Shown piece after piece: positions 19,031 through 34,756 of a stretch of 64,000 bases of DNA. Below the pieces are notes generated by a model. The model was given only the letters and a program-made list of their open reading frames with translations. It did not search any database and had not been told where the DNA came from. The translations under genes were made by a program, and so were the position numbers. Each line of letters opens with the position of its first letter. Within the stretch, counting starts at the first letter, position 1. The DNA comes from Hyphomicrobium sp. CS1BSMeth3 (GTDB lineage Bacteria; Pseudomonadota; Alphaproteobacteria; Rhizobiales; Hyphomicrobiaceae). The stretch spans positions 2,232,001 through 2,296,000 of the forward strand of contig NZ_FPEI01000006.1 of NCBI RefSeq assembly GCF_900117415.1, in the 5' to 3' direction.

Positions 19031-20386
19031 ATGACCCGTCCCTCAGGCATCTCGAGAACCTTCGCCGAGCTCATTGTCGACACGACATGGGAACGACTTC
19101 CGGAGCGCGTCCGGCACGAGGCCAAACGCTCTATTCTCAACTTCATGGCGACGGCGCTCGCCGGATGCCGCGAGGATGCGGTGGAGCATACACTCGCCTC
19201 CCTCGCCGCGTTCTCGGGAGTGGAACAGGCGACCGTCATCGGACGCACGGAGAGGCTCGACGCGCTCAGCGCGGCATTCCTCAACGCGGCGAGCGGCAAT
19301 GTCTTCGATTTCGACGACACGCACCTGCGCACGGTCATCCATCCGACTGCGCCGATCTTGCCTGCGCTTTTCGCCCTTGCCGAGCTGCGATCCGTGTCCG
19401 GACGCGAGCTCCTTCTTGCCTTTGCGCTCGGCGTGGAGATCGAATGCCGGGTCGGCAATGCCATTTCACCGGAGCACTACGCGCGCGGATGGCACATTAC
19501 GTCCACCTGCGGCTGTCTCGGAGCGGCGGCTGCGGCTGGGAAGCTGCTTTCACTCGATGCAGATCAATTGATCTGGTCGCTGGGCTCGGCTGCGACACAG
19601 ACCGGCGGCCTCGTCGAGTGTCTCGGCACCCCGGCGAAGAGCCTGAGCGTCGGCAATGCCGCGCGCAATGGATTGTGGTCCGCACTCCTCGCAGAGCGCG
19701 GCTTTCGCGGACCACCTGCGCCGCTCGAGGGGAAGCAGGGCTATTTCAATGCTCTCGCCCCCTCTGCCCCCGACTGGTCGGCTCTAACGCGGGAGTTGGG
19801 AGAGACCTGGGAGCTTCTTCAGAACACTTACAAGCCATATCCAGCGGGCATCGTCGTCCATCCTGTCATCGATGCAGTGTTGGCACTCCGTCAAGAGCAC
19901 GTGCTCGCGCCCGACAATATCGAGCGCATCGTGGTTCGCGGCCATCCCCTGCTCGCAGCGCGGACGGACCGCCCGCACGTGACATCGGGACGCGAAGCCC
20001 AGGTGAGCGTTCAGCACAGCGTGGCGGCCGCACTCTTGTTCGGAGAGGCATGTCTGGCGCAATATACGGATACATGCGTACGCGATCCTGCAGCCCTAGC
20101 CCTGCGAGCGAAAGTCCAAGTCGAACGGGATGCGGGCATTGCCGTAGAGGCAGCCGCTCTGCGGATCGAGATGAAGGATGGGACGGTGCACGCCCTTGCG
20201 GTGCCGGCCGCTCGGGGCAGCCTGGCTCGTCCTCTGAGCGATAGTGAAATCGAGGAAAAGTTGCACAGGCTCGCGGCCGGTTGGTGCCCCACCCATGATG
20301 TGCAGCCGCTCATTGACGCCGTCTGGGCGTTGGATCGCGCGGCGGATGCTGCGGCAGTTCCTCGCCTCACTGTGCCGACAATATAA
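19031..20386 (+). CDS. MmgE/PrpD family protein
   Basis: A 451-residue cytosolic protein of the MmgE/PrpD family, whose characterised members are 2-methylcitrate dehydratase, cis-aconitate decarboxylase and immune-responsive gene 1 type enzymes. Visible family features are the N-terminal helical domain (RHEAKRSILNFMATALAG), NVFDFDDTHLRTVIHPTAPI, GVEIECRVGNA, the GWHITSTCGCLGAAAAAGKLL segment and YKPYPAGIVVHPVIDA. There is no prpB/prpC context, so methylcitrate metabolism is unlikely. The divergent ABC importer suggests that it acts on an imported small acid or cyclic compound. This is inference only. Confidence 0.85.
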   Translation: MTRPSGISRTFAELIVDTTWERLPERVRHEAKRSILNFMATALAGCREDAVEHTLASLAAFSGVEQATVIGRTERLDALSAAFLNAASGNVFDFDDTHLRTVIHPTAPILPALFALAELRSVSGRELLLAFALGVEIECRVGNAISPEHYARGWHITSTCGCLGAAAAAGKLLSLDADQLIWSLGSAATQTGGLVECLGTPAKSLSVGNAARNGLWSALLAERGFRGPPAPLEGKQGYFNALAPSAPDWSALTRELGETWELLQNTYKPYPAGIVVHPVIDAVLALRQEHVLAPDNIERIVVRGHPLLAARTDRPHVTSGREAQVSVQHSVAAALLFGEACLAQYTDTCVRDPAALALRAKVQVERDAGIAVEAAALRIEMKDGTVHALAVPAARGSLARPLSDSEIEEKLHRLAAGWCPTHDVQPLIDAVWALDRAADAAAVPRLTVPTI

Positions 20387-21991: not shown

Positions 21992-22789
21992 TTAAATCGT
22001 CGTCATTCGCTTCAGACCGACCAGCCTGTCGCAAACGATCAGAGCCACGATTGTCGCCATGATCAAAAGAGCTGACGTTGCAGCAACCGTCGGATCAGGC
22101 GACATCTCCAGCTGGTTCAGGAGTTGGATGGGCAGTGTCTTCGTGTGCACATCGACCAGGAAGATCGAGATCGGATAGTTGTCGAATGAGGCGATAAAGG
22201 CGAACAGCGCGCCCGACATCACGCCCGGCAGAATGTTCGGCACGAGCACGCGCCATAGCGCCCTGGGATATGAGCATCCCAGCATCCGCGCGGCATCCAC
22301 CATCGAGAAATCGAACATGGACAGGCTGGCGAGCACTGTCCGCATGATGAATGGCATCGTCAGCACGATGTGTGCGATGAGCAGGGTCGCGTAGGCATCA
22401 TTCAGGCCGATAAGGCGCGCGGACTGCAGGAATGCGATGCCTAGGACCAATCCGGGGATCATCAGCGGCGACGCCATGAATGTTGCGATGGCGTCACCGC
22501 CGGGGACCATCCGGCGGACGACAGCGATAGCGCAGAGCGTTCCCAGAACAAGCGAAATGAGAGTCGAGATGAAGGCGACCTGCGCGGAGAGCCACGCCGA
22601 TGCGAGAAGCCCGTCGGCGTTGCGGATCGAATAGTACCACTTGAGGGAGAAGCCCTGCGGCGGAAACGAGAAGACGGCCGACTCCGTGAAGGACACCGCC
22701 ACAACGATCACGATCGGCGTGAAGAGAAACATGAGTACGAGGCCCAGCATGACCCAGCACAGCGCGAATGAGATGCGAGGTATCATCAT
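21992..22789 (-). CDS. ABC transporter permease, PotC type
   Basis: A 265-residue inner-membrane permease of the polyamine/opine/iron class. It has six helices, beginning SFALCWVMLGLVLMFLFTPIVIVV. The cytoplasmic EAA loop is AARMLGCSYPRALWRVLVPNILPGVMSGALFAF. The start overlaps the stop of the PotB-type gene by four bases (22786-22789), so the two permeases are coupled and probably form a heterodimer. It is the last gene of the hydantoinase-SBP-ATPase-permease-permease run on the minus strand. Confidence 0.9.
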   Translation of the reverse strand: MMIPRISFALCWVMLGLVLMFLFTPIVIVVAVSFTESAVFSFPPQGFSLKWYYSIRNADGLLASAWLSAQVAFISTLISLVLGTLCAIAVVRRMVPGGDAIATFMASPLMIPGLVLGIAFLQSARLIGLNDAYATLLIAHIVLTMPFIMRTVLASLSMFDFSMVDAARMLGCSYPRALWRVLVPNILPGVMSGALFAFIASFDNYPISIFLVDVHTKTLPIQLLNQLEMSPDPTVAATSALLIMATIVALIVCDRLVGLKRMTTI

Positions 22790-23673
22790 CCCTTGCGCCC
22801 TCTGCGGCTCGCGGGCTCGGCGAAGTAGGTCGACGTGAATACGATCGTGACGGCGACGACGAGCATGACAACGGCCATGCTGGCACCCAGATTGAAGTCA
22901 CGGATGTTGAGGTACGCCTTGGCCATGACCTGCGACATCGTCATGAAGCGATCGCCGATGAGCAGGCCCGGCGTCACGTACGCAGCCACCGAAATAGAGA
23001 ACACGAGGGAAATTCCAGCAACGACGCCGGGCATCGTCAGTGGCAGCGTGACCCTCAAAAATGTCGTTACCGGCCCCGCGCCGAGAGAAGCCGCAGCGTC
23101 AGTGAGCCGGGGATCGAGCTGACGCATGACGGAATAGATCGGCAGGATCATCAATGGCAGAAACACATTGATCATGCCGAAGTAGAGCGCGAACTCGGTG
23201 AACACTAGCCGCATCGGGCGCTCGATAAAGCCCAAGTTGAGCAGCAGCCAATTCAGGATTCCATCTCTTCGCATCATGATCGCGAGACCGAACGTCTTGA
23301 CGATGATGCTGACGGTCAGGGGTAGGAAGATGAGGGCGAAGAGAAGGACCTGAAGCCGAGCAGGCGCTCGCGAAAGCGCGAACGCAGCGGGATAACCGAT
23401 CAGCAAGCTTCCGATCGTAGTGATCAGACCGAGCTGCAGGGAATTCCATATGATCCCGATGTAGTAGGGATCGCCGAGCACTTTCCGATATCCTGCCAGG
23501 CTGAGCCCGCTGGCGTCGCGGAAACTGTCAGCGACCAGAATGAGGACCGGGATTGCGAATGCCACGACCATGAACACGAGCCCGGGTAGCACCATGATTG
23601 CTGGCGCGTCGAGCTGGAGTAACCGGCGGCGCGGTGGCGCGGTGACCTGGGTCTCCATTCCAATCGTCGTCAT
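22786..23673 (-). CDS. ABC transporter permease, PotB type
   Basis: A 295-residue inner-membrane permease paired with the PotC-type subunit. The start is the ATG at 23673, which overlaps the ATPase stop by four bases (ATGA). A longer frame upstream is only the antisense of the ATPase end. The protein shows a short cytoplasmic N-terminus, a first helix (IMVLPGLVFMVVAFAIPVLILV), five more helices and an EAA loop (DAAASLGAGPVTTFLRVTLPLTMPGVVAG). The pair of distinct permeases, as against one, sets this importer apart from the one at 16037-18800. Confidence 0.9.
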   Translation of the reverse strand: MTTIGMETQVTAPPRRRLLQLDAPAIMVLPGLVFMVVAFAIPVLILVADSFRDASGLSLAGYRKVLGDPYYIGIIWNSLQLGLITTIGSLLIGYPAAFALSRAPARLQVLLFALIFLPLTVSIIVKTFGLAIMMRRDGILNWLLLNLGFIERPMRLVFTEFALYFGMINVFLPLMILPIYSVMRQLDPRLTDAAASLGAGPVTTFLRVTLPLTMPGVVAGISLVFSISVAAYVTPGLLIGDRFMTMSQVMAKAYLNIRDFNLGASMAVVMLVVAVTIVFTSTYFAEPASRRGRKG

Positions 23674-24794
23674 GGCGTTGGGTACACCATTGTTTCGGCA
23701 ATCGGCCAATGCAGCTTGAGCGCGGCACCCGGAGCGACGCCCGAAGGAAGGCGCGCGACTTCTACTTGAATGCGATCCTCCATTGCCGGAGGCTTGAAAT
23801 GCAGAGCCGTCTTGGATCCGAAAAAGACGATATCGGCGAGCTCTGCTGTGATCTCGTTGAAGTCGGCGCCGGGCCGCTCGCCGAGAGCAATGCATTCAGG
23901 GCGAATGCCAACAACGACTTTCCCGGTCGGGCCACTATTCCTGCGCATTGACGCGCGGATCTGGCCGATGGGTGTCTCAATGCCGACATCGCCGCCTTGG
24001 CCCGAAGCGCTGGCAGTTCCGCCAATACGTGTCGACTGGCCGACGAACTCGAGCACGTGCAGGCTTGCCGGCGAGCTATAGACTTCGTCCGGCGTCCCAA
24101 GCTGCTCGATGCGTCCTTCGTTCATCACGGCAATGCGGTCGCTCATGACGAGCGCCTCATCCTGGTCATGCGTCACGAAGATGGATGTGATCTCGAGGTC
24201 TCTCAGAAGGTGTCGCAGCTCGATCTGCATCGTCTCGCGCAGTTTTCGATCGAGCGCGCTGAACGGTTCGTCGAGCAGCAGGAGTGACGGCTTGACGACG
24301 AGCGCACGGGCCACCGCTACGCGCTGCTGCTGCCCGCCTGAAAGCGCGGAAATGCGCCTTTCCGCGAAGGCCTGCATGCGCACGAGGGCGAGCGCGTTTT
24401 GCACGCGCCCCCCGATCTCTGCCTTGAGCGTTCTCTGCGCCTCGAGCCCGAAGGCGACGTTCTGCTCGACGCTCAGATGCGGAAACAGGGCGTAGTTCTG
24501 GAACACGACGCCGATGTTTCGCTTGTGCGCCGGAACCTGCGTCAGATCGTTGCCACCGATCGCAATCCGGCCCCCATCAGGCTTCATGAGGCCGGCGATC
24601 AATCGCAACAACGTGGTCTTGCCGCACCCCGAAGGGCCGAGCAGGGAGATGAATTCGGAGCGGGCGACGCTGATGTCGAGATCCTTCAGGACCGTCGCCG
24701 CCCCGAACCGCTTCGTGACAGCGGCCACGTCGAGATAGCGGTCGCTTCTGGGCGTCGCCCGTGCGTGTGCAGCTTCGCGTGCTACGACGTTCAC
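23670..24794 (-). CDS. ABC transporter ATPase, PotA type
   Basis: 374 residues from a GTG start at 24794 that overlaps the binding-protein stop (GTGA, 24791-24794) with GGGAGG upstream. The frame is open much further, but that extension is the out-of-frame binding-protein gene. Walker A GPSGCGKTT, Q-loop VFQNYALFP, signature LSGGQQQRVAVARAL, Walker B LLLLDEPFSALD and switch FVTHDQDEAL are all intact. A C-terminal TOBE-like regulatory domain follows (about residues 265-370, with VVVGIRPECIAL), typical of the PotA/FbpC/UgpC group. Confidence 0.93.
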   Translation of the reverse strand: MNVVAREAAHARATPRSDRYLDVAAVTKRFGAATVLKDLDISVARSEFISLLGPSGCGKTTLLRLIAGLMKPDGGRIAIGGNDLTQVPAHKRNIGVVFQNYALFPHLSVEQNVAFGLEAQRTLKAEIGGRVQNALALVRMQAFAERRISALSGGQQQRVAVARALVVKPSLLLLDEPFSALDRKLRETMQIELRHLLRDLEITSIFVTHDQDEALVMSDRIAVMNEGRIEQLGTPDEVYSSPASLHVLEFVGQSTRIGGTASASGQGGDVGIETPIGQIRASMRRNSGPTGKVVVGIRPECIALGERPGADFNEITAELADIVFFGSKTALHFKPPAMEDRIQVEVARLPSGVAPGAALKLHWPIAETMVYPTP

Positions 24795-25825
24795 CTTGCG
24801 GAGACCTCCCGCTCGAAGCGCTCGATCATGGCGTTGCGATTGTCGGCGAAATACTCCCAATCCAGCGCGACGAGGTCGGGGAACGAGAGATCCGCAGGGA
24901 GTACCGTCTTGCTGTTCGTGGGCTTCGAGAAGAAGGTCTTGGCGATGTAAGCCTGGATGTCGGGGCTCAGCATCTCGTTCAGGAACTGGATGCCGATGTC
25001 CTGGTTCGGTCCACCTTCGACGAGCGCGATGCCGGCCGGCATCGCAAGGATGCCCTCCTTCGGCTTGCCTTGATCGACCGGCGCGCCCTTCGACTTGCGC
25101 TGCAGTGTCGTGCGCGAGTCGGGCGCCATGTAGAGATCGCACTCGCCGGTTTCGAGGAGCTGCTGGGCCTGCGGTGCGTTCGTCGACACCTGGATGATAT
25201 TGGGCTTGAGCTGCTTCATGCGCTCGATGCCCTGCTGCCAGTCTGGCATGCACTGATCGAGCGGTTTCTTGGTGACGTGGTGCGTGGCAGCGAGCAGTGG
25301 GGCGATGGCCTGCGTAATGCGCATCGAGATGATGATGATGCGCTCCTTGAATTTCGGATCCCAGGCCTCAGCATAGGAGTCCAGGCCCTTCGGCAGCGAT
25401 TGGGTATTGTAGGAGAAGCTGCACAGGGGCTGGCACCAATTGGCCCACATGGCATCGCGCGGCTTGGCCCCGGCCGGAAGATCTGCGAGATTCGTGACGT
25501 CGGCCGGCAGCTTCTTGATCACCTTCTCACGCTCGGCGAGGATGAGGACCGGGTCGTCCATCATGGTCAGCGTCATCGTTGGACGCGCCTTGTTCGAGCG
25601 GATCTTCTCGAGGTTGATGAGCGAGTTCGTGCCCTCGTAGAGCACCTTCACATTGAGCTTCTTCTCGATCAGCGGGAAGAGGCCGTCAGTAAGGCCCGGC
25701 GTGGCGGGGCCGCCGATGAAGATCTCTCGCGTCTGGGCGCGAACGATATTGGGAAAACCGACAACGCCTACTGCCGAAGCGCCAGCAAGAACCTGACGCC
25801 GCGAGAATGTGGTCTTCTTGCTCAT
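24791..25825 (-). CDS. Tat-exported substrate-binding protein, PotD/PotF-like
   Basis: A 344-residue periplasmic binding protein of the extracellular family 1 type. The ATG at 25825 has GGAG nine bases before it and opens a twin-arginine signal (SRRQVLAGASAVGVVGFPNIVRAQ, with the SRRQVLAG core at residues 8-15). The mature part has the two-lobe pattern of polyamine/opine-like binding proteins: IGGPATPGLTDGLFPLIEKK, YEGTNSLINLEKI, and near the end ALDWEYFADNRNAMIERFEREV. It lies 130 bases downstream of the hydantoinase gene on the same strand. The ligand is therefore likely a compound on the hydantoinase/amidase route, not a polyamine. That is inference from context. Confidence 0.88.
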   Translation of the reverse strand: MSKKTTFSRRQVLAGASAVGVVGFPNIVRAQTREIFIGGPATPGLTDGLFPLIEKKLNVKVLYEGTNSLINLEKIRSNKARPTMTLTMMDDPVLILAEREKVIKKLPADVTNLADLPAGAKPRDAMWANWCQPLCSFSYNTQSLPKGLDSYAEAWDPKFKERIIIISMRITQAIAPLLAATHHVTKKPLDQCMPDWQQGIERMKQLKPNIIQVSTNAPQAQQLLETGECDLYMAPDSRTTLQRKSKGAPVDQGKPKEGILAMPAGIALVEGGPNQDIGIQFLNEMLSPDIQAYIAKTFFSKPTNSKTVLPADLSFPDLVALDWEYFADNRNAMIERFEREVSAR

Positions 25826-25955
25826 GGGGATGTTCTCCTGTGATCCGAGATGCCATTTAGCGTTCGGTAGATCGCTGACAGGACGCACTCATCTGTGGGG
25901 ATTCTGCGACGACCGGCTAAGTGTCATCGCCATTGAGACGTGAGAGCCCGGTCGA

Positions 25956-27404
25956 TCAGACGATTTTGCGATCGACAGGGTTGAATGGCGTGGGGAAGCG
26001 ACCGAGTGGTGTGATCTTTGCGTAAGGCGCGCGCGGAAGGTAGCTGCCGTGTCCCGCCTTCCCGACGACCTTGCCGTCATCGAAGACCGTAACGCCACGA
26101 ACGAGCACGCGGACCGGATATCCAGTTGCCTGATATCCCTCGTAAGGCGTGTAGTCTCCGCCGTGATGCATTCGCTCGTTGGTCAGCGTCACGGATTTCG
26201 CGGGATCCCAGATGACGACATCGGCGTCGCTGCTCGGCGCGATCGCGCCCTTCTTGGGATGCAACCCGACGAGCTTGGCCGGATTAGTCGAGACGAGACG
26301 AACGAATGTCGGCGGATCGATGCGCCCCTTCGTGACGCCCTCGGTGAACAATACCGGCAGGCGCGCGGCGAGGCCTGGGATGCCGTTCGGTATTTGGGTG
26401 AACGGCCCATCCTCGCCCGCAAACTTCTTGCCCTTCGGATCATCGTAGCGCGTCGGCGCGTGATCTGATGAGATAACCTCGATGATGCCGCGGCGCATGT
26501 AGTCCCAAAGCGCTTCTTGGTCGGCCTTCGTGCGCGCGGGTGGCCCAAACACCAGCTTTGCGCCCTCGAAACCGGGCCGATCGAGATCCTCGGCGACGAG
26601 CGTCAGGTAGTGTACGCACGTCTCGCCCCAGACTTTAAGGCCCCGTGCCTGGGCACGCGCGATTTCCTCAGCAGATTGCGCACCTGATACGTGGAAAACC
26701 TGGATCGGCACATCCAACGCTTCTGCCAGCGCGACGATCCGATTCACCGCCTCGCGCTCTGCGATCATCGGCTTGCCCCAAGGGTGATACTTGGGCGCTG
26801 TAAGGCCAGCCGCGACGAGCTGCTCTCCCATCCAGGAAATGAGATCATGATGCTCCGCGTGGACGCAGACGAGCGCTTTGTTGCGTCGGGCGGCAGCCAG
26901 CACACGAATGACGGCCGCATCGTCCAGGCGAACACCGTCATACGTCATGAAGATCTTGATCGAACGATTGCCCTCTTCGACCAGCGAAGGCAGCTCCTGA
27001 TCCAGGACTGCAGGCGTTGCATCCGTGATCGTCAGGTGGAATGCGTAGTCCACCATCGATTGGCGCGCACGCTGATGGTAGTCCTTCACCACCTCAGCGA
27101 GCGACTCGCCCTTGCCTTGCCAAGCAAAGCAAACGACCGTCGTCGTTCCACCTGCCGCGGCAGATGCGCTGCCCGTGCGGAAGTCATCGCACATCTCGGG
27201 ACCGCGCGAGCGCTGAGCAAGGTGGACATGCGTGTCGACGCCGCCAGGCATGACGAGCATCCCGCTCGCGTCGATCACTTCGCGCGCACTTCCGCCGAGC
27301 GCGCCAACCGCTACGACTTGACCGCCGGAAATGGCGACATCAGCCTTGGCCATGTCCTGCGCCGAGACCACTGTGCCGCCACGTATGAGGAGATCGTAGT
27401 CCAC
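25956..27404 (-). CDS. Dihydropyrimidinase / D-hydantoinase
   Basis: A 482-residue cytosolic cyclic amidohydrolase that opens six-membered dihydropyrimidine or five-membered hydantoin rings. The two-metal site is complete: H59 and H61 (VDTHVHL), carboxylated K150 (SIKIFMTYDG), H182 (VHAEHH), H238 (FHVSG) and D314 (SSDHAPTRY). Y155, which binds the substrate carbonyl in D-hydantoinases, is also present. Length and motif spacing match the family. It heads the minus-strand run with a Pot-type importer and is divergent from the NHL-amidase-racemase run. A dihydropyrimidinase of pyrimidine breakdown cannot be excluded, but no dihydropyrimidine dehydrogenase or beta-ureidopropionase is nearby. Confidence 0.92.
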   Translation of the reverse strand: MDYDLLIRGGTVVSAQDMAKADVAISGGQVVAVGALGGSAREVIDASGMLVMPGGVDTHVHLAQRSRGPEMCDDFRTGSASAAAGGTTTVVCFAWQGKGESLAEVVKDYHQRARQSMVDYAFHLTITDATPAVLDQELPSLVEEGNRSIKIFMTYDGVRLDDAAVIRVLAAARRNKALVCVHAEHHDLISWMGEQLVAAGLTAPKYHPWGKPMIAEREAVNRIVALAEALDVPIQVFHVSGAQSAEEIARAQARGLKVWGETCVHYLTLVAEDLDRPGFEGAKLVFGPPARTKADQEALWDYMRRGIIEVISSDHAPTRYDDPKGKKFAGEDGPFTQIPNGIPGLAARLPVLFTEGVTKGRIDPPTFVRLVSTNPAKLVGLHPKKGAIAPSSDADVVIWDPAKSVTLTNERMHHGGDYTPYEGYQATGYPVRVLVRGVTVFDDGKVVGKAGHGSYLPRAPYAKITPLGRFPTPFNPVDRKIV

Positions 27405-27504
27405 CGCGTCTTCCCCCTTTCGGTGTGGCTATTCCGACTGCATTATGAGCATCTAACACGTGCCTAAGCAACGGGCACGCACGAAAGGTATGCAGGAGGC
27501 TGCT

Positions 27505-28350
27505 ATGCGAACAGGCACTCTCGTGGTCGCTCTCGGGGAGAGGCGCTATCGCGTCGAGCGGCCTTGGGGTGACCTTCCCGCTGGACCAGTTAGCGACGTG
27601 ACGGTCGACTCGCGTGGCCACGTGTTCGTGATCCTACGTTGGGATCCGCTCTCCGATACGACGAGCCCGCGCGTTATCGAGCTCTCGCCGGAAGGGGAGC
27701 GGCTTGGCGCCTGGGGCGAGAAGCTCATTGCGGACTCTCATATGCTCGCGGCGGCGCCCGACGATCGCCTGTTCATTGTCGATCGTGATGTCCACGAGGT
27801 GGTCATCTGTCGATCCAACGGCGAGCGCATCGGCGGCCTCGGCAAGCGATATGCGCCGCTGGAGCCTTTCAACCATCCAACGGACGTGGCGATCACGCCG
27901 AAGGGCGAAATCTATGTCTCCGACGGTTATGCCGGCCATAGCGTGCATCGCTTTTCGCCAGACGGAAGGTTGCTGCGATCGTGGGGCAGCCTCGGCGAGG
28001 AGCCGGGGCAATTCGTGAATCCGCATGCTGTCTGGGTCATGAGCGACGGCAGAGTTGTCATCGTCGATCGAGAAAACAATCGCCTGCAGGTGTTCACGCC
28101 GGATGGAGATCTGCTCGACGTGTGGACGGGGTTCCGCAAGCCCATGGATGTTTGGGGTGATGCCGACGACAATCTCTACGTGACGGATCTCGTTCCGACG
28201 CTCGCCATGCTTGCGCCCGATGGTCGTCGGCTTGGACGTTGCCGGCCAGTCCTAAACGGTGCTCACGGCATCTGGGGCGACAAGCAGGGCCGGCTCTACC
28301 TTGCCGAGCCCAATCCCAGCAGGCTCACGAGGCTAACGCCTATCGATTAG
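27505..28350 (+). CDS. NHL-repeat beta-propeller protein
   Basis: A 281-residue protein built of NHL repeats (about six blades). Typical blade cores are DVTVDSRGHVFVI, DVAITPKGEIYVSDGYAGHSVHRFSPDG, WVMSDGRVVIVDRENNRLQVFTPDG and DVWGDADDNLYVTDL. The start at 27505 has AGGAGG six bases before it. Earlier in-frame starts lack such a site. There is no signal peptide, so it appears cytosolic. Relatives are sometimes annotated as peptidyl-amidating lyase-like or as lactonase/hydrolase-like propellers, and the true activity is unknown. It lies divergent from the hydantoinase and ahead of the amidase, so it may act on an intermediate of this route. Confidence 0.8.
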   Translation: MRTGTLVVALGERRYRVERPWGDLPAGPVSDVTVDSRGHVFVILRWDPLSDTTSPRVIELSPEGERLGAWGEKLIADSHMLAAAPDDRLFIVDRDVHEVVICRSNGERIGGLGKRYAPLEPFNHPTDVAITPKGEIYVSDGYAGHSVHRFSPDGRLLRSWGSLGEEPGQFVNPHAVWVMSDGRVVIVDRENNRLQVFTPDGDLLDVWTGFRKPMDVWGDADDNLYVTDLVPTLAMLAPDGRRLGRCRPVLNGAHGIWGDKQGRLYLAEPNPSRLTRLTPID

Positions 28351-28421
28351 AGCCGTACTGTCGCTCGTCAAATGTGTCTGGATGGGCGTCACCCATATGA
28401 AGTGCTGCTGAGGACTATTCG

Positions 28422-29810
28422 ATGCTTCGCAAGAGTGCGCGAGAAATTGCGGCTGCGGTAAACGGCAAGGCGGCTGACCCGGTGGAGGTCACTGACGTAT
28501 TTGTCGCCCGTATTCTGGAAAGAAATCCGAGCCTAAATGCTCTCGTGCGCTTCGATCCGCAGATCGCCCGCGGCGAAGCGCTGGACGTACGCCGACGAAT
28601 GCAGGCCGGTGAAACCATGCCTCTGGCGGGCGTGCCTGTCATCGTCAAAGACAACATTTGGGCGGCCGGGCGAAGAATTTCGCAGGGATCGCGGCTCTTC
28701 GCCGACCATGTCGCGCCAGAGGACGCCATCGCTGTCGCGCGCTTGCGCCAGGCCGGTGCCGTCATCATTGGAATCGGCAATTCTCCCGAGTTCGCCTGCA
28801 AAGGCGTGACCAACAGCCCACTACATGGGCCGACACACCACCCGTTGAACGTAACCCTGACACCGGGCGGCTCTTCCGGTGGCAATGCCGCGGCGCTTGC
28901 CGCTGATTTTGCTCCGATTGCACTTGGGACAGACGGCGGCGGCTCCGGCAGGCGGCCGCTTGCGCATACTGGAACCGTCGGCTTCAAACCTTCGTTCGGG
29001 GCAATTCCCTATGGCCCCGGTTTTCCAGAACCTTTCTGGGGAATCTCGGTTTTGGCGCCCATGGGGCGTTCAGTTGCCGACGTCGCGGCCCTATTCGATG
29101 TGGTGGTGGGTGCCGATGCGCGCGATGTTGAGAGCGCGGCCATTGAGGCTCGCTCAGCCCCCGAGCCCCGGCAGTTGCGCGCTGCATTCTGTCGAGACCT
29201 GGGCCTCGGTGCGCCAATCGATAGCGATGTCGAAGCCGCAATTGCAGATGGTGTAGATCGCTTGGCAAAGGCTGGCTGGAAAATCGAGCACACTGAAGTT
29301 CAATGGCCGACCGGGATCGGCGAAGCCTCCATCATGCCCTTGCAAGCTGCAGGCCTCGCAGCTATTCACGGTGAGACTTGGCGACGAACGCCGGATCTAT
29401 TCGATCCCGATATTGCCGTGCAGATCGAGCGCGGAATGTCACTGACCGGCGCCGATGTGGGCCGCGCCCTCGAGGCGAGCGCCGCGATCAAACGCACGGT
29501 CGCGCAGTTCTTCGCGGGTTATGACCTGCTGCTCTGTCCGACTGCGCCCTGTGTGGCGTGGCCGCTGACCGAACTCGGCCCCAAGCAAATTGGCGGTGTG
29601 GATGTGCCCCCGCGCGGGCACGCCGTGTTCACGCCGCTCTTCAATCACGCGCTTGTGCCCGCGATCTCGATACCATGCGGTCGTGGGCGCGACGGCTTGC
29701 CGGTCGGGATGCAAATCGCGAGCCGGCGCGGGCGTGATCGAACGGTACTTGCGGCTGCGACGGAAGCTGAGCGCATTCTCGCGCCGATCAATGACTATGC
29801 GAGGTGCTAG
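28422..29810 (+). CDS. Amidase, amidase-signature family
   Basis: A 462-residue amidase-signature hydrolase. The Ser-cisSer-Lys triad is intact: K76 (VPVIVKDN), S151 (TPGGSSGG) and S175 (GTDGGGSGR). The distance of 24 residues between the serines is the usual one. Family ends such as HALVPAISIPCG and GLPVGMQI are present. No membrane segment or signal is seen. Members hydrolyse a wide range of amides, including carbamoyl and half-amide compounds. Placement next to a hydantoinase and an importer suggests that it cleaves the opened-ring product or a related amide. The next gene begins two bases after its stop. Confidence 0.92.
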   Translation: MLRKSAREIAAAVNGKAADPVEVTDVFVARILERNPSLNALVRFDPQIARGEALDVRRRMQAGETMPLAGVPVIVKDNIWAAGRRISQGSRLFADHVAPEDAIAVARLRQAGAVIIGIGNSPEFACKGVTNSPLHGPTHHPLNVTLTPGGSSGGNAAALAADFAPIALGTDGGGSGRRPLAHTGTVGFKPSFGAIPYGPGFPEPFWGISVLAPMGRSVADVAALFDVVVGADARDVESAAIEARSAPEPRQLRAAFCRDLGLGAPIDSDVEAAIADGVDRLAKAGWKIEHTEVQWPTGIGEASIMPLQAAGLAAIHGETWRRTPDLFDPDIAVQIERGMSLTGADVGRALEASAAIKRTVAQFFAGYDLLLCPTAPCVAWPLTELGPKQIGGVDVPPRGHAVFTPLFNHALVPAISIPCGRGRDGLPVGMQIASRRGRDRTVLAAATEAERILAPINDYARC

Positions 29811-29812
29811 AG

Positions 29813-30559
29813 ATGCGAATTCTGATGCTGAACCCGAATACCACGCCTGCCATCACGGACCGGCTCTACCAAGCAGCGGTCGAAGTCACCGCGCCTGACA
29901 CGGTGCTCATTCCTCTGACGGCATCACGCGGCGTGCCCTATATCGCAACACGCGCGGAGGCACAGATCGGCGGCGCGGTCGCCTTGGAAATGCTCGCTGA
30001 GCAGCATCGCAATGTCGATGCAGCGATCATTGCCGCTTTCGGAGATCCTGGATTGTTGGCGGCGCGTGAGCTCTTCGACATCCCCGTCATCGGGATGGCC
30101 GAGGCGGCGATGCTGGCTGCCTGTATGCTCGGACGTTCCTTCGCGATTGTCACCTTCGCGAGTGCACTTGGTCCTTGGTACCGCGAGTGCGTGGAAATGC
30201 ACGGCCTCACGGGGCGCTGCGCTGGCATCCGCATGCTCGACGGTGCCTTCCGGTCGATCTCCGACGTGCAGGAGGAGAAGGAAGAGCTACTCGTTGAATT
30301 GGCCAATCGCGCAGTCACGGAGCTCGAGGCCGATGTCGTCATCCTCGCGGGCGCGCCACTTGCGGGACTTGCGAAGAAAGTGAAGTCCCGCATCCCTGTT
30401 CCGGTCGTAGATCAAGTGCAGGCTGCCGTGAAGCTGGCGGAATCTGTGCTGGCCCTAGGTACGAGCAAGGCGACAGCAGGTACCTTTCGCCGGCCTGCAG
30501 CCAAGCCGACAATCGGCCTGGCGAGCGAACTTCAGCGCCGCATCGAGCACACCGACTAA
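29813..30559 (+). CDS. Hydantoin racemase-like protein lacking both catalytic cysteines
   Basis: A 248-residue member of the Asp/Glu/hydantoin racemase superfamily. The start MRILMLNPNTTPAITD is typical of hydantoin racemases. A GTG nine bases earlier is possible. Active racemases of this family use two cysteines, one in a C-F-G-D-P-G context and one in a G-C-A-G context. Here the first site reads IIAAFGDPGL and the second VVILAGAPLAGL, so both cysteines are replaced (alanine at the first, and no cysteine around the second). The fold seems otherwise whole and the gene is not frameshifted. A racemase by the usual two-base mechanism is therefore unlikely. A binding, decarboxylating or changed role is possible. 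It is translationally close to the amidase gene. Confidence 0.8.
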   Translation: MRILMLNPNTTPAITDRLYQAAVEVTAPDTVLIPLTASRGVPYIATRAEAQIGGAVALEMLAEQHRNVDAAIIAAFGDPGLLAARELFDIPVIGMAEAAMLAACMLGRSFAIVTFASALGPWYRECVEMHGLTGRCAGIRMLDGAFRSISDVQEEKEELLVELANRAVTELEADVVILAGAPLAGLAKKVKSRIPVPVVDQVQAAVKLAESVLALGTSKATAGTFRRPAAKPTIGLASELQRRIEHTD

Positions 30560-30710
30560 GCCGAATGGCAAGGCAGCGTGGACTTGGGTGCTCGACTACT
30601 GACCGAAATGGATCTCAACAGTATCTGGATTGAGAGGTGCGGATAAGTATTTGAAAGGGCAGTGGAGAGATGTTAGCGCGGGTGTAAGTTCCTTTTCGAG
30701 AGGGCTGACA

Positions 30711-31859
30711 ATGTCCCCAAAGCGCATCATCTTCGGCACCCCTTCTATCGGTGATGAAGAGATCGAAGAGGTCATCGACACTCTCAGGTCGGGGTGGATA
30801 GGAACTGGCCCACGGGTGGCGCGCTTCGAGCGGGAATTTGCCGCGCACAAACGATCTCCGTATGCTGTTGCCGTCAACTCCTGCACTGCTGCATTGCATC
30901 TCTCATTGGTCGCGGCCGGGATCGGCGAAGGCGATGAGGTCATCACAACGCCCCTGACATTCTGCGCAACCGTGAACGCGATCATTCATGCGGGCGCGCG
31001 GCCAGTGCTGGCGGACATCGATCCGCGCACGATGAACATCGACCCTGAGCAGATTGAGCGCAAGCTCACGCCACGCACGAAGGCCCTTCTGCCCGTGCAC
31101 TTCGCCGGACTACCCTGTGAAATGGATGCCATCGGCAGAATCGCGACGCAGCATAATCTCAAGGTGATCGAAGATTGTGCGCACGCAATCGAGACGGAGT
31201 ATCGGGGCCAGCCAGCCGGATGCATTGGCGACTTTGGTTGCTTCAGCTTCTATCCCAACAAGAATATGACCACCGGCGAAGGCGGCATTATCCTGACGCG
31301 CAGCGAGGCCGACGCCGAGCGATTGAGATCCTTGGCCCTGCACGGCATGTCCAAGGATGCCTGGAAGAGGTTCATTGACCCGAGGTTCCGGCACTACCTG
31401 GTCACGGAGGTCGGCTACAAATACAACATGACGGATCTGAATGCAGCGATCGGTCTGCACCAGATCCGACGCCTCGATGACTTCTGGCGCCGACGCACGG
31501 AGATATGGAACACATACGACCGCGCTTTTGAGGATCTGCCGCTCGTGCTGCCGACGCGCGCGGCTGAGGGCGTGAAACACGCGCGTCACCTGTATACCGT
31601 GCTTGTGGATCGCGATCGCGCCGGCATCGATCGCGAGGACTTCATCGAGAGCCTCAATCGCAGACTGGTCGGCACCGGCGTCCACTATCTATGCCTTGCC
31701 GAGCATCCCGTGTACCAAAGCCTCTTCGGCTGGCGGGCATCGGACTTTCCTCATGCCAGCCGCATCGGACGCCAGACCGTGAGCCTGCCGATCTCGCCGT
31801 CCCTATCCGACAGCGAGGTGTCCACGATCATTTCTGCCGTACGTGAGAGCGTTGCTTAG
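30711..31859 (+). CDS. DegT/DnrJ/EryC1-type PLP sugar aminotransferase
   Basis: A 382-residue aminotransferase that puts an amino group on a nucleotide-linked keto-sugar with pyridoxal phosphate. The start at 30711 has GAGAGGG seven bases before it. Family marks are WIGTGPRVARFEREFA, VNSCTAALHLSL, the aspartate in VIEDCAHA and the PLP lysine in FYPNKNMTTGEGG, followed by YKYNMTDLNAAIG. The RmlA gene follows 88 bases later. Together they suggest synthesis of a dTDP-amino sugar, but the 4,6-dehydratase (RmlB type) is not in the window, so the sugar is unknown. Confidence 0.9.
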   Translation: MSPKRIIFGTPSIGDEEIEEVIDTLRSGWIGTGPRVARFEREFAAHKRSPYAVAVNSCTAALHLSLVAAGIGEGDEVITTPLTFCATVNAIIHAGARPVLADIDPRTMNIDPEQIERKLTPRTKALLPVHFAGLPCEMDAIGRIATQHNLKVIEDCAHAIETEYRGQPAGCIGDFGCFSFYPNKNMTTGEGGIILTRSEADAERLRSLALHGMSKDAWKRFIDPRFRHYLVTEVGYKYNMTDLNAAIGLHQIRRLDDFWRRRTEIWNTYDRAFEDLPLVLPTRAAEGVKHARHLYTVLVDRDRAGIDREDFIESLNRRLVGTGVHYLCLAEHPVYQSLFGWRASDFPHASRIGRQTVSLPISPSLSDSEVSTIISAVRESVA

Positions 31860-31946
31860 GTACGACGGCAACTCACGCTGGAAGAAGCGCATTCACTAGC
31901 AAGCACCGCGCAGTACCCACGCGAGTTTTCTTTGGGAGGAGGAGCA

Positions 31947-32816
31947 TTGAAGGGCATTATCCTCGCCGGTGGGAGAGGCACGCGACTTCACCCGTCAACG
32001 CTTGTGGTATCGAAGCAGCTCCTGCCGATCTACGACAAGCCCATGATCTACTATCCCCTGACAACGCTCATGCTTGCCGGGGTTCGCGAGGTTCTGGTCA
32101 TTTCAGCACCTGGAGACCTGCCCCTTTTCCAACGTCTCCTCGGCGACGGAACCAAGTGGGGGATGCGGCTCAGCTACGCTCCGCAGCCACAGCCGGGGGG
32201 GATAGCACAAGCCTACGTGATCGGGCGCGAGTTCGTTCAAGGCAATCGCTCAGCGCTCATACTTGGTGACAACGTCTACTTCGGCAATGGATTGGGAGGC
32301 ATTCTGCAGCGCGCAGCATCGCGCGACGTAGGTGCCACAGTGTTTGCGTACGCTGTTAGTGATCCTGCTCGCTACGGCATCGTTGAATTCGGCGCGAATG
32401 GCGCTCCGCTCTCCATCGAGGAGAAACCGGAAGTTCCGAGATCACGATGGGCCGTTACCGGTCTCTATTTCTACGATCAGCGCGTTGTCGATATTGCCGC
32501 AACCCTGAAACCATCGTCCCGTGGCGAGCTGGAGATCACCGACATCAATCGCACCTACCTCGAGCTTGGCGCGCTGCATGTCCAGAAACTCGGACGCGGC
32601 TATGCTTGGCTTGATACCGGCACACCCGATGCGCTTTGCGAAGCGTCCGATTTTGTGCGCGTCCTCGAGAGGCGGCAAGGTTTCCGCATTGCCTGCCCCG
32701 AGGAGATCGCCTTCCGCATGGGTTTCATCGATCGCGCACAGTTGGCCAATCTGGCCATGGAGCTCGGAACCTGCTCGTACGGGCAGTATCTGATGAGCAT
32801 AGCGCGGGAGCCCTGA
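31947..32816 (+). CDS. rmlA: Glucose-1-phosphate thymidylyltransferase
   Basis: Makes dTDP-glucose from dTTP and glucose-1-phosphate, the entry to dTDP-deoxysugars. 289 residues, the usual length, when read from a TTG at 31947, which has GGAGGAGGA just upstream. No ATG lies near the conserved N-terminus. Catalytic and binding motifs are complete: [62 protein letters not shown] and the C-terminal [12 protein letters not shown]. It sits between the DegT aminotransferase and the convergent acyltransferase, in a nucleotide-sugar cluster. Confidence 0.93.
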
Positions 32817-32877
32817 CAGTCGCACGGCGCGCCATTCTTCTGAGCGGCACTGACCGCGAGGCTGTCGCGGCTTATTG

Positions 32878-33528
32878 CTATCTGCCGTCGACGCCCTCTT
32901 TCTTGATCCGTGCGGGAGAGCCCATGACCTGCACGTTCTCGGGAACATCTCGCGTGACCAAGGAGCCTGCCGCGATCACACTGCCCCTCCCCACCCGCCG
33001 ACCGTCCAGCACGATGGCGCCCATGGCAACGTAGCATCCGTCCTCGATGACACACTTGCCGGCAATGTTGGCGCCCGGAGAAACGGTGACGTATCGCCCG
33101 ATCCGCGTGTGATGCCCGATCAAGACGCCGCGGTTCAAGATCGTATGCGAGCCGATCTCCGATTGCGCAGCGACAATGACGCCCGCGCTGACGATGGCGC
33201 CAACTCCGATCGGACTTGTCGAAGATATGCGGGCACTTGGATGCACGAGCGTGGCGAACGGCAAGCCGAACGGCTCAACTTGCTCGATATAGCTCTGCCG
33301 CTTCGTTGTGCCGATCGCACAGATCAGATGGTGCCCGCGACCAATCGTGCCAAGGTCGTCCACCCAATAGATCGGTTTGCCATGGAGCTTCGTCCCGCAA
33401 CGGCTGCGGTCGAGATTCTCGACAAAGCCGGCCGTCCGCCACTCCCTAGTTTCCGACATGAGATCATCCACTTCCTCTGCGAAGGCGTACGAGCCGAGGA
33501 TCAGTACAGGCAGACGCGGATCATCCAT
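32878..33528 (-). CDS. Sugar O/N-acyltransferase, PglD/NeuD type
   Basis: A 216-residue acyltransferase. The N-terminal 90 residues are the small Rossmann-like domain of the PglD/NeuD group (LPVLILGSYAFAEEVDDL, CAIGTTKRQ). The rest is a left-handed beta helix of hexapeptide repeats (IGVGAIVSAGVIVAAQSEIG, ILNRGVLIGHHTRIGRYV, VIEDGCYVAMGAIVLDG), with the catalytic-type histidine in GHHTRIG. The start at 33528 has GAGGT five bases before it and overlaps the glycosyltransferase stop by eight bases. It likely acetylates an amino sugar made by the convergent DegT-RmlA pair. The acyl donor would be acetyl-CoA. Confidence 0.87.
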   Translation of the reverse strand: MDDPRLPVLILGSYAFAEEVDDLMSETREWRTAGFVENLDRSRCGTKLHGKPIYWVDDLGTIGRGHHLICAIGTTKRQSYIEQVEPFGLPFATLVHPSARISSTSPIGVGAIVSAGVIVAAQSEIGSHTILNRGVLIGHHTRIGRYVTVSPGANIAGKCVIEDGCYVAMGAIVLDGRRVGRGSVIAAGSLVTRDVPENVQVMGSPARIKKEGVDGR

Positions 33529-34756
33529 TTCTGACCTCGGCCGCCGATGCATAAGCTATCGGTGCGAGCGCGTTCGACAGCAAGGACGCGAGCGTAAAGC
33601 TCTCGGTGACAAACCTGTGCGCCTCATCAACGATACGCGAACGCTCTTCGTCCCTCTCAAGATACGTGACTAGAGCTTCACCGAGTTCCGACGCATCGCG
33701 GACAATCGCGTGCCGGCCCTCAAGAAACGGACCAGGATCGCTGGCACGCTCCGAAACGACAAGCGTTTTACAGCCCATGGCCATCAAGAGACGGATAACC
33801 GGGAACTCCCAAGGAAACTTCTGCAGGTTGAGGATGATCTTCGACCGGTTCAGCAGACGATTGCGCTCCTCACCATAACAGTCGCGATCGACCACGTGGA
33901 TGGTTCGCTTATGGCGTCGCAAGTGTGATCGAATTGCATGGAGCAGGTCGCGCCGCCGCTCGCTGATCTGCCCGAGAAAAAGCACGTCCACGTCGCGATC
34001 GATGCCCGGTATGATTGATCCAAACTCTGGCAGATATCCAACGGGGACGACTTGGCTCGGAATGCCGTGCTGTGCCAGAAGCACCTTGCGCGGTGGAACG
34101 CTGACCAGAATGTGGTCCAAGAGACCATCCCGCCAAAGCTGAACAACATCTCGGACCTGTTTCAGAGGATAGCTCAGGAGCTTGCGCATACTGCGCACAG
34201 ATGGGTCAACTTGTGGCGAGCCTCGCAGAGAGACTGCAAAAGCTCTTGCCAATGCTGAGGCAACAACGGAACGTCCCGTTCGGCTGAGAGCAGACTCGGG
34301 CTCGGAGAGACTGCTCAGATTGCGCAGGTCAGCTTGAAGGATGCGCTTAGGCAGTCCTTCCACAGGAGGTGGAAGCGGCTCCAATTGCCACAACACACGC
34401 TTTACTCCCCGGGCTCCAGCGGCTTGGAGGCATTGCACGACCTCGTGACGCGCCCAGCGTCCCGTACCTATGATGAGAAGGATGTCTCCAGCGGAAAGCG
34501 CCTGGTCTGGAAGCCCCACAGCGGCTAGCGGAAATCTGGCGCTCAAGGCGCTGGCTATTTGGTGCGCCGGGAGGATGTTGCCGGCACCGACTGCATCAAG
34601 CACCGAGATACGGACGGATCGACAGATATCCTGCATGAAATGGCTGCTCGCGGGATGCTTACCAAACGAATGGGCGAGCCGGTTTGGTCCACAGGTACTG
34701 CCCGCTTCGCACTGCGGGCTCAGAAAAGCAAGACCAGGGCGACGCGTCGCTCGCAT
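33521..34756 (-). CDS. Glycosyltransferase, family-1-like (CgeB-like)
   Basis: Up to 411 residues; the start is uncertain (ATG at 34756 or at 34636, neither with a good ribosome site). The C-terminal half has the layout of CgeB/glycosyltransferase-1-like proteins: VPVGYLPEFG, VLFLGQISERRRDLLHAI, NRSKIILNLQKFPWEFPVIRLLMAMGCKTLVVSE, and a GRHAIVRDASELGEALVTYL donor-binding end. The N-terminal half has a weaker Rossmann pattern (ILLIIGTGRWARHEVVQCL). It is coupled to the acyltransferase gene and likely transfers the modified sugar to a surface glycan. Acceptor and linkage are unknown. Confidence 0.78.
   Translation of the reverse strand: MRATRRPGLAFLSPQCEAGSTCGPNRLAHSFGKHPASSHFMQDICRSVRISVLDAVGAGNILPAHQIASALSARFPLAAVGLPDQALSAGDILLIIGTGRWARHEVVQCLQAAGARGVKRVLWQLEPLPPPVEGLPKRILQADLRNLSSLSEPESALSRTGRSVVASALARAFAVSLRGSPQVDPSVRSMRKLLSYPLKQVRDVVQLWRDGLLDHILVSVPPRKVLLAQHGIPSQVVPVGYLPEFGSIIPGIDRDVDVLFLGQISERRRDLLHAIRSHLRRHKRTIHVVDRDCYGEERNRLLNRSKIILNLQKFPWEFPVIRLLMAMGCKTLVVSERASDPGPFLEGRHAIVRDASELGEALVTYLERDEERSRIVDEAHRFVTESFTLASLLSNALAPIAYASAAEVRNG

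Follow-up and report, generated by a model that had tools for sequence, protein, structure and literature searches.

The gene at positions 29813 to 30559 (plus strand) of the window, the 64,000-nucleotide stretch of Hyphomicrobium sp. CS1BSMeth3 DNA analysed here, was found to encode a 248-aa hydantoin-racemase-like protein of a conserved clade that lacks both catalytic cysteines (AG type). With a probability of roughly one half (0.48), this Cys-free clade no longer racemises and is most likely a different enzyme in a pathway for the uptake and ring opening of cyclic ureides or imides. By fold and sequence the protein is a member of the allantoin/hydantoin racemase branch, minus the catalytic pair of that branch, and its usual racemase label is probably wrong.

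PF01177 was the sole Pfam match of the product at E 1e-3 (E 1.3e-46), and the NCBIfam scan returned 0 matching models. The AlphaFold2 model, obtained with 32 aligned sequences as input, reached a mean pLDDT of 95.3, and its closest solved structures were 3qvk (Z 33.8, rmsd 1.8, 240 aligned) and 5lg5 (Z 33.6). The allantoin racemases of Klebsiella pneumoniae (3qvj/3qvk) and Pseudomonas fluorescens (5lg5) share the fold, 32-36% identity and the NPN motif with the window protein, and the FGDPG loop is also present in 3qvj. The same fold was matched in the hydantoin racemase of Pyrococcus horikoshii (2eq5, Z 25.7, 18% identity), and the superfamily fold in maleate isomerase (2xed, 4fq5; Z 18.2, 13-15% identity). 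Maleate isomerase uses two catalytic cysteines, whereas A75 and G180 are found in the Cys-less protein.

The first-pass annotation of this DNA had reported the open reading frame and its two altered motifs, and both were read from the sequence at the same coordinates, as A75-F-G-D-P-G and A179-G180-A181-P182. In the phmmer alignment with the Klebsiella allantoin racemase 3qvj, in which both motif cysteines are present, A75 and G180 stood opposite those cysteines. The A75 codon (GCT, 30035..30037, plus strand) lies opposite the first catalytic cysteine (Cys79 in KpAllR), and G180 (GGC, 30350-30352), the first of the G180-A181-P182 codons (30350..30358, plus strand), replaces the second (Cys184 in KpAllR). 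A75, G180 and P182 were each present in 50/50 thinned clade members, which exceeds chance and bears out the claim that both catalytic cysteines are gone. Compared to the allantoin racemases, the protein further differed by P182 after the second site, by F115 in place of Thr119, and by Y43, R47, E49, W122 and Y123, which differ from the two-Cys relatives.

Rescue by another cysteine was considered and rejected, as C104, C126 and C136 occurred in only 35/50, 32/50 and 28/50 members, and no alignment column held Cys in at least 80% of the 50 clade rows. Neighbouring cysteines acting in catalysis, which the first-pass annotation had named as evidence against its own reading, are therefore disfavoured by the sequences, none being conserved. 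With both sites changed, P182 gained and no remaining cysteine conserved, the loss of the two-base racemase mechanism is well supported at the level of sequence, and the “new activity or binding role” proposed at first pass may follow.

Other superfamily members compared here retain at least part of the catalytic pair. OpaE epimerase (fold match Z 22.7) comes from the same allantoin-hydantoin racemase branch and has a pocket re-lined for a new substrate, according to the available part of PMC12661438, but it keeps Cys90 and Cys199 as its catalytic pair, both of which are missing here. The L-Asp/Glu-specific racemase EcL-DER carries the pair Thr83/Cys197 in the same partial source (PMC12661438), against A75/G180 in the Cys-less protein. 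Arylmalonate decarboxylase (AMDase, PF17645; Z 18.5) belongs to the same superfamily and likewise departs from the two-Cys plan; it keeps one cysteine (Gly74/Cys188), whereas the Cys-less protein has neither and gave no PF17645 match at E 1e-3.

Homologues were drawn from the window and from 261 retrieved loci, many of which overlap, one locus collection being the best 80 of 86 loci. After fragments shorter than 170 aa had been left out, 188 distinct homologues remained. They comprised 126 AGm proteins (the Cys-less type of the window, at least 40% identity to the window protein), 13 AGr (a more distant Cys-less type), 21 CG (first cysteine only), 19 CC (both cysteines) and 9 others, proportions which do not represent natural frequencies because homologues had been collected through their resemblance to the window protein and a handful of relatives. 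P182 was present and internal stops were absent in all 126 AGm proteins, in agreement with the earlier statement that the gene is otherwise intact. Thinning to below 80% identity, with loci of less than 8 kb total flank left out, gave 50 AGm, 13 AGr, 19 CG, 15 CC and 8 other rows (105 rows).

The unrooted maximum-likelihood tree was calculated from 98 of the 105 rows, after seven long-branch rows had been dropped and with columns 75, 180 and 182 omitted. The AGm rows occupied one side of a branch with bootstrap/SH-aLRT support of 100/95, so that the Cys-less form is a clade, the point on which the first-pass annotation had advised an alignment of close homologues. The CC branch was supported at 100/99, the CG branch weakly at 71/29, and AGr did not form one group. 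A quick tree of all 105 rows, with the same columns omitted, again separated AGm from the other rows by a single branch (SH-aLRT 98). On the tree, one change between Cys and non-Cys sufficed at position 180, and two or more were needed at position 75. With the root placed beside the two-Cys rows, there was a single loss of the second cysteine. For the first cysteine, parsimony fitted equally well one loss with regain in CG or several separate losses; separate losses from a one-Cys ancestor seem the more plausible course, and stepwise loss would fit the existence of relatives that retain the first cysteine alone. For a correlation between the loss of Cys75 and changes at residues 47, 49 or 123, the tree offered one independent pair on starred branches and two in all, too few to draw on.

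Several other arrangements were observed in the collection. Another small group missing both cysteines, in which Val or Met occupies the first site and Gly the second, was represented by L233, L234, L235, L147, L158 and L240. An AGr paralogue was located in the same stretch as the main Cys-less gene at L084 (5957-6613) and likewise at L199, L218, L246, L261, L155, L182 and L077. At L228, CG and CC homologues (7962 and 11220) were separated by about 3 kb, in the vicinity of a hydantoinase and a PuuE-like gene. A two-Cys homologue with the motifs ACFDDT and GCAGMA is encoded at another place in the host genome (L002), so the copy at 29813-30559 need not be the racemase of the host. One further locus, L183, contained a two-Cys gene and an AGr gene in a single 12-kb stretch, the latter near a hydantoinase; together with L002 this indicated that a Cys-less form does not simply stand in for a Cys-bearing one.

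The occurrence of the family was patchy, with hits in 12/103 genomes at E 1e-30 or better in the family search, all types pooled, and in 22/385 genomes at 1e-35 in the class search. Plasmid records of an Arthrobacter and of proteobacteria (alpha, beta and gamma classes) contained AGm members as well. Of 20 such records, 9 were examined, 2 of which have no annotation in the relevant stretch.

A decaying hydantoin racemase copy, or a sequencing error, would explain the missing cysteines, which are the only observation that speaks for it. Between the window gene and its nearest relative, L018, dN was 0.051 and dS 0.739 (dN/dS about 0.07), and for the neighbouring genes dN and dS were 0.071 and 0.702 (amidase) and 0.023 and 0.827 (hydantoinase). 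By this sequence comparison, purifying selection on the window copy is strong. Together with clade-wide fixation on the 100/95 branch, the absence of internal stops in 126/126 members and the high-confidence fold, this led to the rejection of decay, whose probability we regard as negligible; gene decay, too, had been named at first pass as grounds against its reading, and the sequence evidence goes the other way.

The residues that were near-invariant in the clade (at least 47/50 AGm) and absent from the 15 CC rows were A37, Y43, R47, E49, A75, W122, Y123, G180, P182 and L183. The codons for Y43 to E49 lie at 29939..29959 (plus strand), Y43, R47 and E49 each occurring in 48/50 clade rows and in 0/15 two-Cys relatives, and those for the clade-specific aromatic pair W122-Y123 at 30176..30181 (plus strand; 49/50 and 47/50, with 0/15 CC and 0/19 CG). 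The exceptions included F at residue 123 in 3/50 and D at residue 49 in 2/50 thinned rows. Among CG rows, R47 was found in 19/19 and Y43 in 17/19, with E49 in 1/19 and W122 and Y123 in 0/19 each, and the eight “other” rows, which also lack both cysteines, had R47 in 8/8, E49 in 7/8 and Y123 in 7/8. AGr proteins were mostly without these residues (P at 47 in 8/13, I at 123 in 11/13, E49 in 3/13), so R47, Y123 and E49 are no general substitute for the cysteines.

The substrate contacts of KpAllR are Asn12, Thr118 and Thr119 in the accessible portion of PMC12661438, and by alignment offset these correspond to N9, T114 and F115 of the window protein. N9 was present in 50/50 thinned AGm rows, as were N7 and P8; T114 was retained in most rows (T 36, S 8, A 6) and F115 occurred in 44/50. 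These counts suggested a mostly conserved substrate anchor in a pocket with a new lining. By analogy with loop A of OpaE, Y43, R47 and E49 would lie near the pocket, and the new clade residues probably face the cleft.

Given an acidic residue at 49 in 50/50 rows and Y or F at 123 in 50/50, the protein could in principle still be a racemase or epimerase that attacks an acidic C-H of its substrate through other bases such as E49 and Y123; non-Cys bases are used by other racemases, as the consulted part of PMC8142540 states. Against this, P182 alters the second half-site, three of the 50 rows have F123, and in OpaE the C90S change keeps 4.8% activity while C199S and the double change leave at most 0.3% (PMC12661438, partial text). 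We regard continued racemisation as distinctly unlikely.

The genes around the Cys-less gene were consistent with a pathway context. Directly upstream, an amidase-signature gene (28422..29810, plus strand; PF01425 E 3.2e-89) has Lys-Ser-Ser motifs recognised by pattern, which we take to be catalytic. Its stop codon (29808-29810) ends two bases before the ATG. This same-strand adjacency fits the co-transcription claimed at first pass. A divergent dihydropyrimidinase/D-hydantoinase gene (25956..27404, minus strand; TIGR02033 518.5 bits, cut-off 393.25) carries motifs, again by pattern, that are presumably its metal ligands. Between them lies an NHL-repeat gene (27460..28350, plus strand; PF01436 E 9.1e-18), which was found within 8 kb in 1/50 thinned clade loci, the window itself, and also in the near-identical L018 neighbourhood. 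Transport genes follow on the minus strand: a periplasmic solute-binding protein with an uncertain start (24791..25888; PF13416 E 4.3e-15), an ABC transporter ATPase (23670..24794; PF00005 E 1.6e-38, scanned as a longer same-frame ORF) and two likely ABC permeases with approximate ends (21992..23700), recognised as ORFs with homologues near 60/94 clade loci before thinning; a comparable cluster carries an annotated “ABC transporter permease”. A scan of 27300-30800 gave 0 sigma-70-type promoters and 4 terminator-like sites, against 2.1 in shuffles, and was uninformative. Downstream, at 30630-33552, the ORF translations look like sugar-nucleotide or polysaccharide genes, presumably a DegT-like aminotransferase, a nucleotidyltransferase and an acyltransferase-like protein. 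An MmgE/PrpD-family gene was noticed at 19031-20386, about 9 kb upstream of the racemase-like gene, and on contig C3 of the same genome a distant racemase-like homologue (L238), in which Asn takes the first Cys site, adjoins a distant MmgE/PrpD relative.

Neighbours were then counted within 8 kb across the thinned loci, with self-set thresholds and with reference proteins taken from AG clusters, which favours matches there. Compared to the CG, CC and other loci, the AGm loci more often contained a dihydropyrimidinase (22/50 vs 4/42, Fisher p 3.7e-4; the loci are non-independent, L228 alone giving 2 of the 4), an amidase (20/50 vs 0/42, p 8e-7) and an Amdase-like gene with Gly and Cys at the two sites (18/50 vs 1/42, p 5e-5). 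None of the three was present within 8 kb in 17/50 AGm loci, and a dihydropyrimidinase was absent by the set thresholds in 28/50, of which at least one, L215, has one by annotation. The amidase was directly adjacent on the same strand in 15/50 thinned loci (13 upstream, 2 downstream), so the same-strand adjacency pointed out at first pass is real and recurrent. Among the 13 AGr loci, dihydropyrimidinase was found in 5, amidase in 6 and a PuuE-like gene in 10. PuuE-like neighbours were rejected as a mark of the clade, occurring in 14/50 AGm and 13/42 comparison loci. De novo clustering of neighbour ORFs, crowded by antisense ORFs, yielded nothing firm beyond the reference-based counts.

A second superfamily gene was present near 23/50 AGm loci (18 Amdase-like and 5 with another hydantoin-branch homologue). 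Such a possible partner, together with the loss of both acid/base residues, the proline gained in the second half-site and the ligand-anchoring N7/P8/N9 in 50/50 rows, would also suit a non-catalytic binding or regulatory protein which has kept its ligand cleft merely to sense or carry an intermediate of the pathway, or which stabilises a partner enzyme. However, the 27/50 loci without a second superfamily gene argue against an obligate partner encoded next door, which was rejected on that count, though a partner may be encoded elsewhere, and a GntR regulator gene is already near 26/50 thinned loci. A binding role is the main rival to the different enzyme and seems unlikely on the whole. The DMSP lyase Alma1 represents an earlier change of chemistry on this fold, with two cysteines kept, in the part of PMC10349084 available, and by this analogy a different enzymatic step would be favoured over loss of function.

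The Amdase-like neighbours had Gly at site 1 and Cys at site 2 wherever their motifs were printed. In clusters like those of Paraburkholderia (L220) and Methylobacterium nodulans (L212) the second superfamily gene lay beside the hydantoinase or the Cys-less gene. Three of these neighbours scored 71, 76 and 65 bits against PF17645 (cut-off 25.9), and both of those scanned with the NCBIfam models for EutA and arylmalonate decarboxylase scored under the cut-offs. In the L220 protein, G-T-S and Cys matched the G-T-S and Cys of AMDase, and the Gly74/Cys188 arrangement is that of decarboxylases in the accessible text of PMC4996985. The no-Cys and one-Cys relatives were paired in 18/50 clusters, 13 of which also had a dihydropyrimidinase by the set thresholds, and the genome of the window held only a distant match to the Amdase-like neighbour (26%). 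Amdase/EutA-like single-Cys genes (L220 6832-7557, L212 8213-8992 and others) were also observed near or next to dihydropyrimidinase genes in Bradyrhizobium, Cupriavidus, Paraburkholderia and others.

As the superfamily contains a cofactor-free decarboxylase and Amdase-family neighbours are common, an arylmalonate-type decarboxylase acting on a malonate-like ring-opening product was weighed for the Cys-less protein itself. Cys188 is the sole proton donor in AMDase according to the available part of PMC4996985, the clade has Gly there, and the neighbouring Gly/Cys gene fits that role better, which makes decarboxylation by the clade very unlikely. The linkage to dihydropyrimidinase gives a hint, from gene context, of what Amdase-family proteins do in nature. 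Little is known of the metabolic function of these proteins (PMC4996985, in part), and the natural function of hydantoinases has been called unclear (PMC3546935, in part); the clusters described here supply genomic context for both.

In the pathway that we favour, with the Cys-less protein as a different enzyme, the transporter would import a cyclic ureide or imide, the dihydropyrimidinase would open the ring, the amidase would free ammonia, and the Cys-less protein would perform a further step on the ring or the ring-opened carboxylate. R47 may hold the carboxylate, and E49, Y123, W122 or the substrate itself may supply the chemistry, which would be elimination or hydrolysis and not 1,1-proton transfer. 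We infer both that the protein is an enzyme and that the steps run in this order. In nicotinate breakdown of Aspergillus, the PuuE-related cyclic imidase HxnM is followed by the amide hydrolase HxnN, as far as the consulted portion of PMC9304392 goes, and by analogy ring opening followed by amide hydrolysis would be a reasonable frame for these clusters. A more specific proposal, possible but rather doubtful as a whole, is that a Cys-free enzyme class arose from a two-Cys racemase by loss of the second cysteine and then the first, and that a new R47/E49/W122/Y123 site performs a non-racemase step on a ring-opened carboxylate, often beside a single-Cys Amdase-like partner, in an undescribed cyclic ureide/imide pathway.

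In the open PMC subset, no description of a Cys-less hydantoin racemase clade was found in the titles and abstract openings among the matches listed, which is weak evidence of absence. The clade represents a widespread, well-conserved bacterial family within a known superfamily, and the variant itself is new as far as found. Named plasmid records label clade proteins “aspartate/glutamate racemase family protein” or “Asp/Glu/hydantoin racemase”, and pathway models that rely on these labels may therefore include a non-existent racemase. If the clade is catalytic, it would perform Cys-free chemistry on a fold whose literature members compared here need at least one cysteine.
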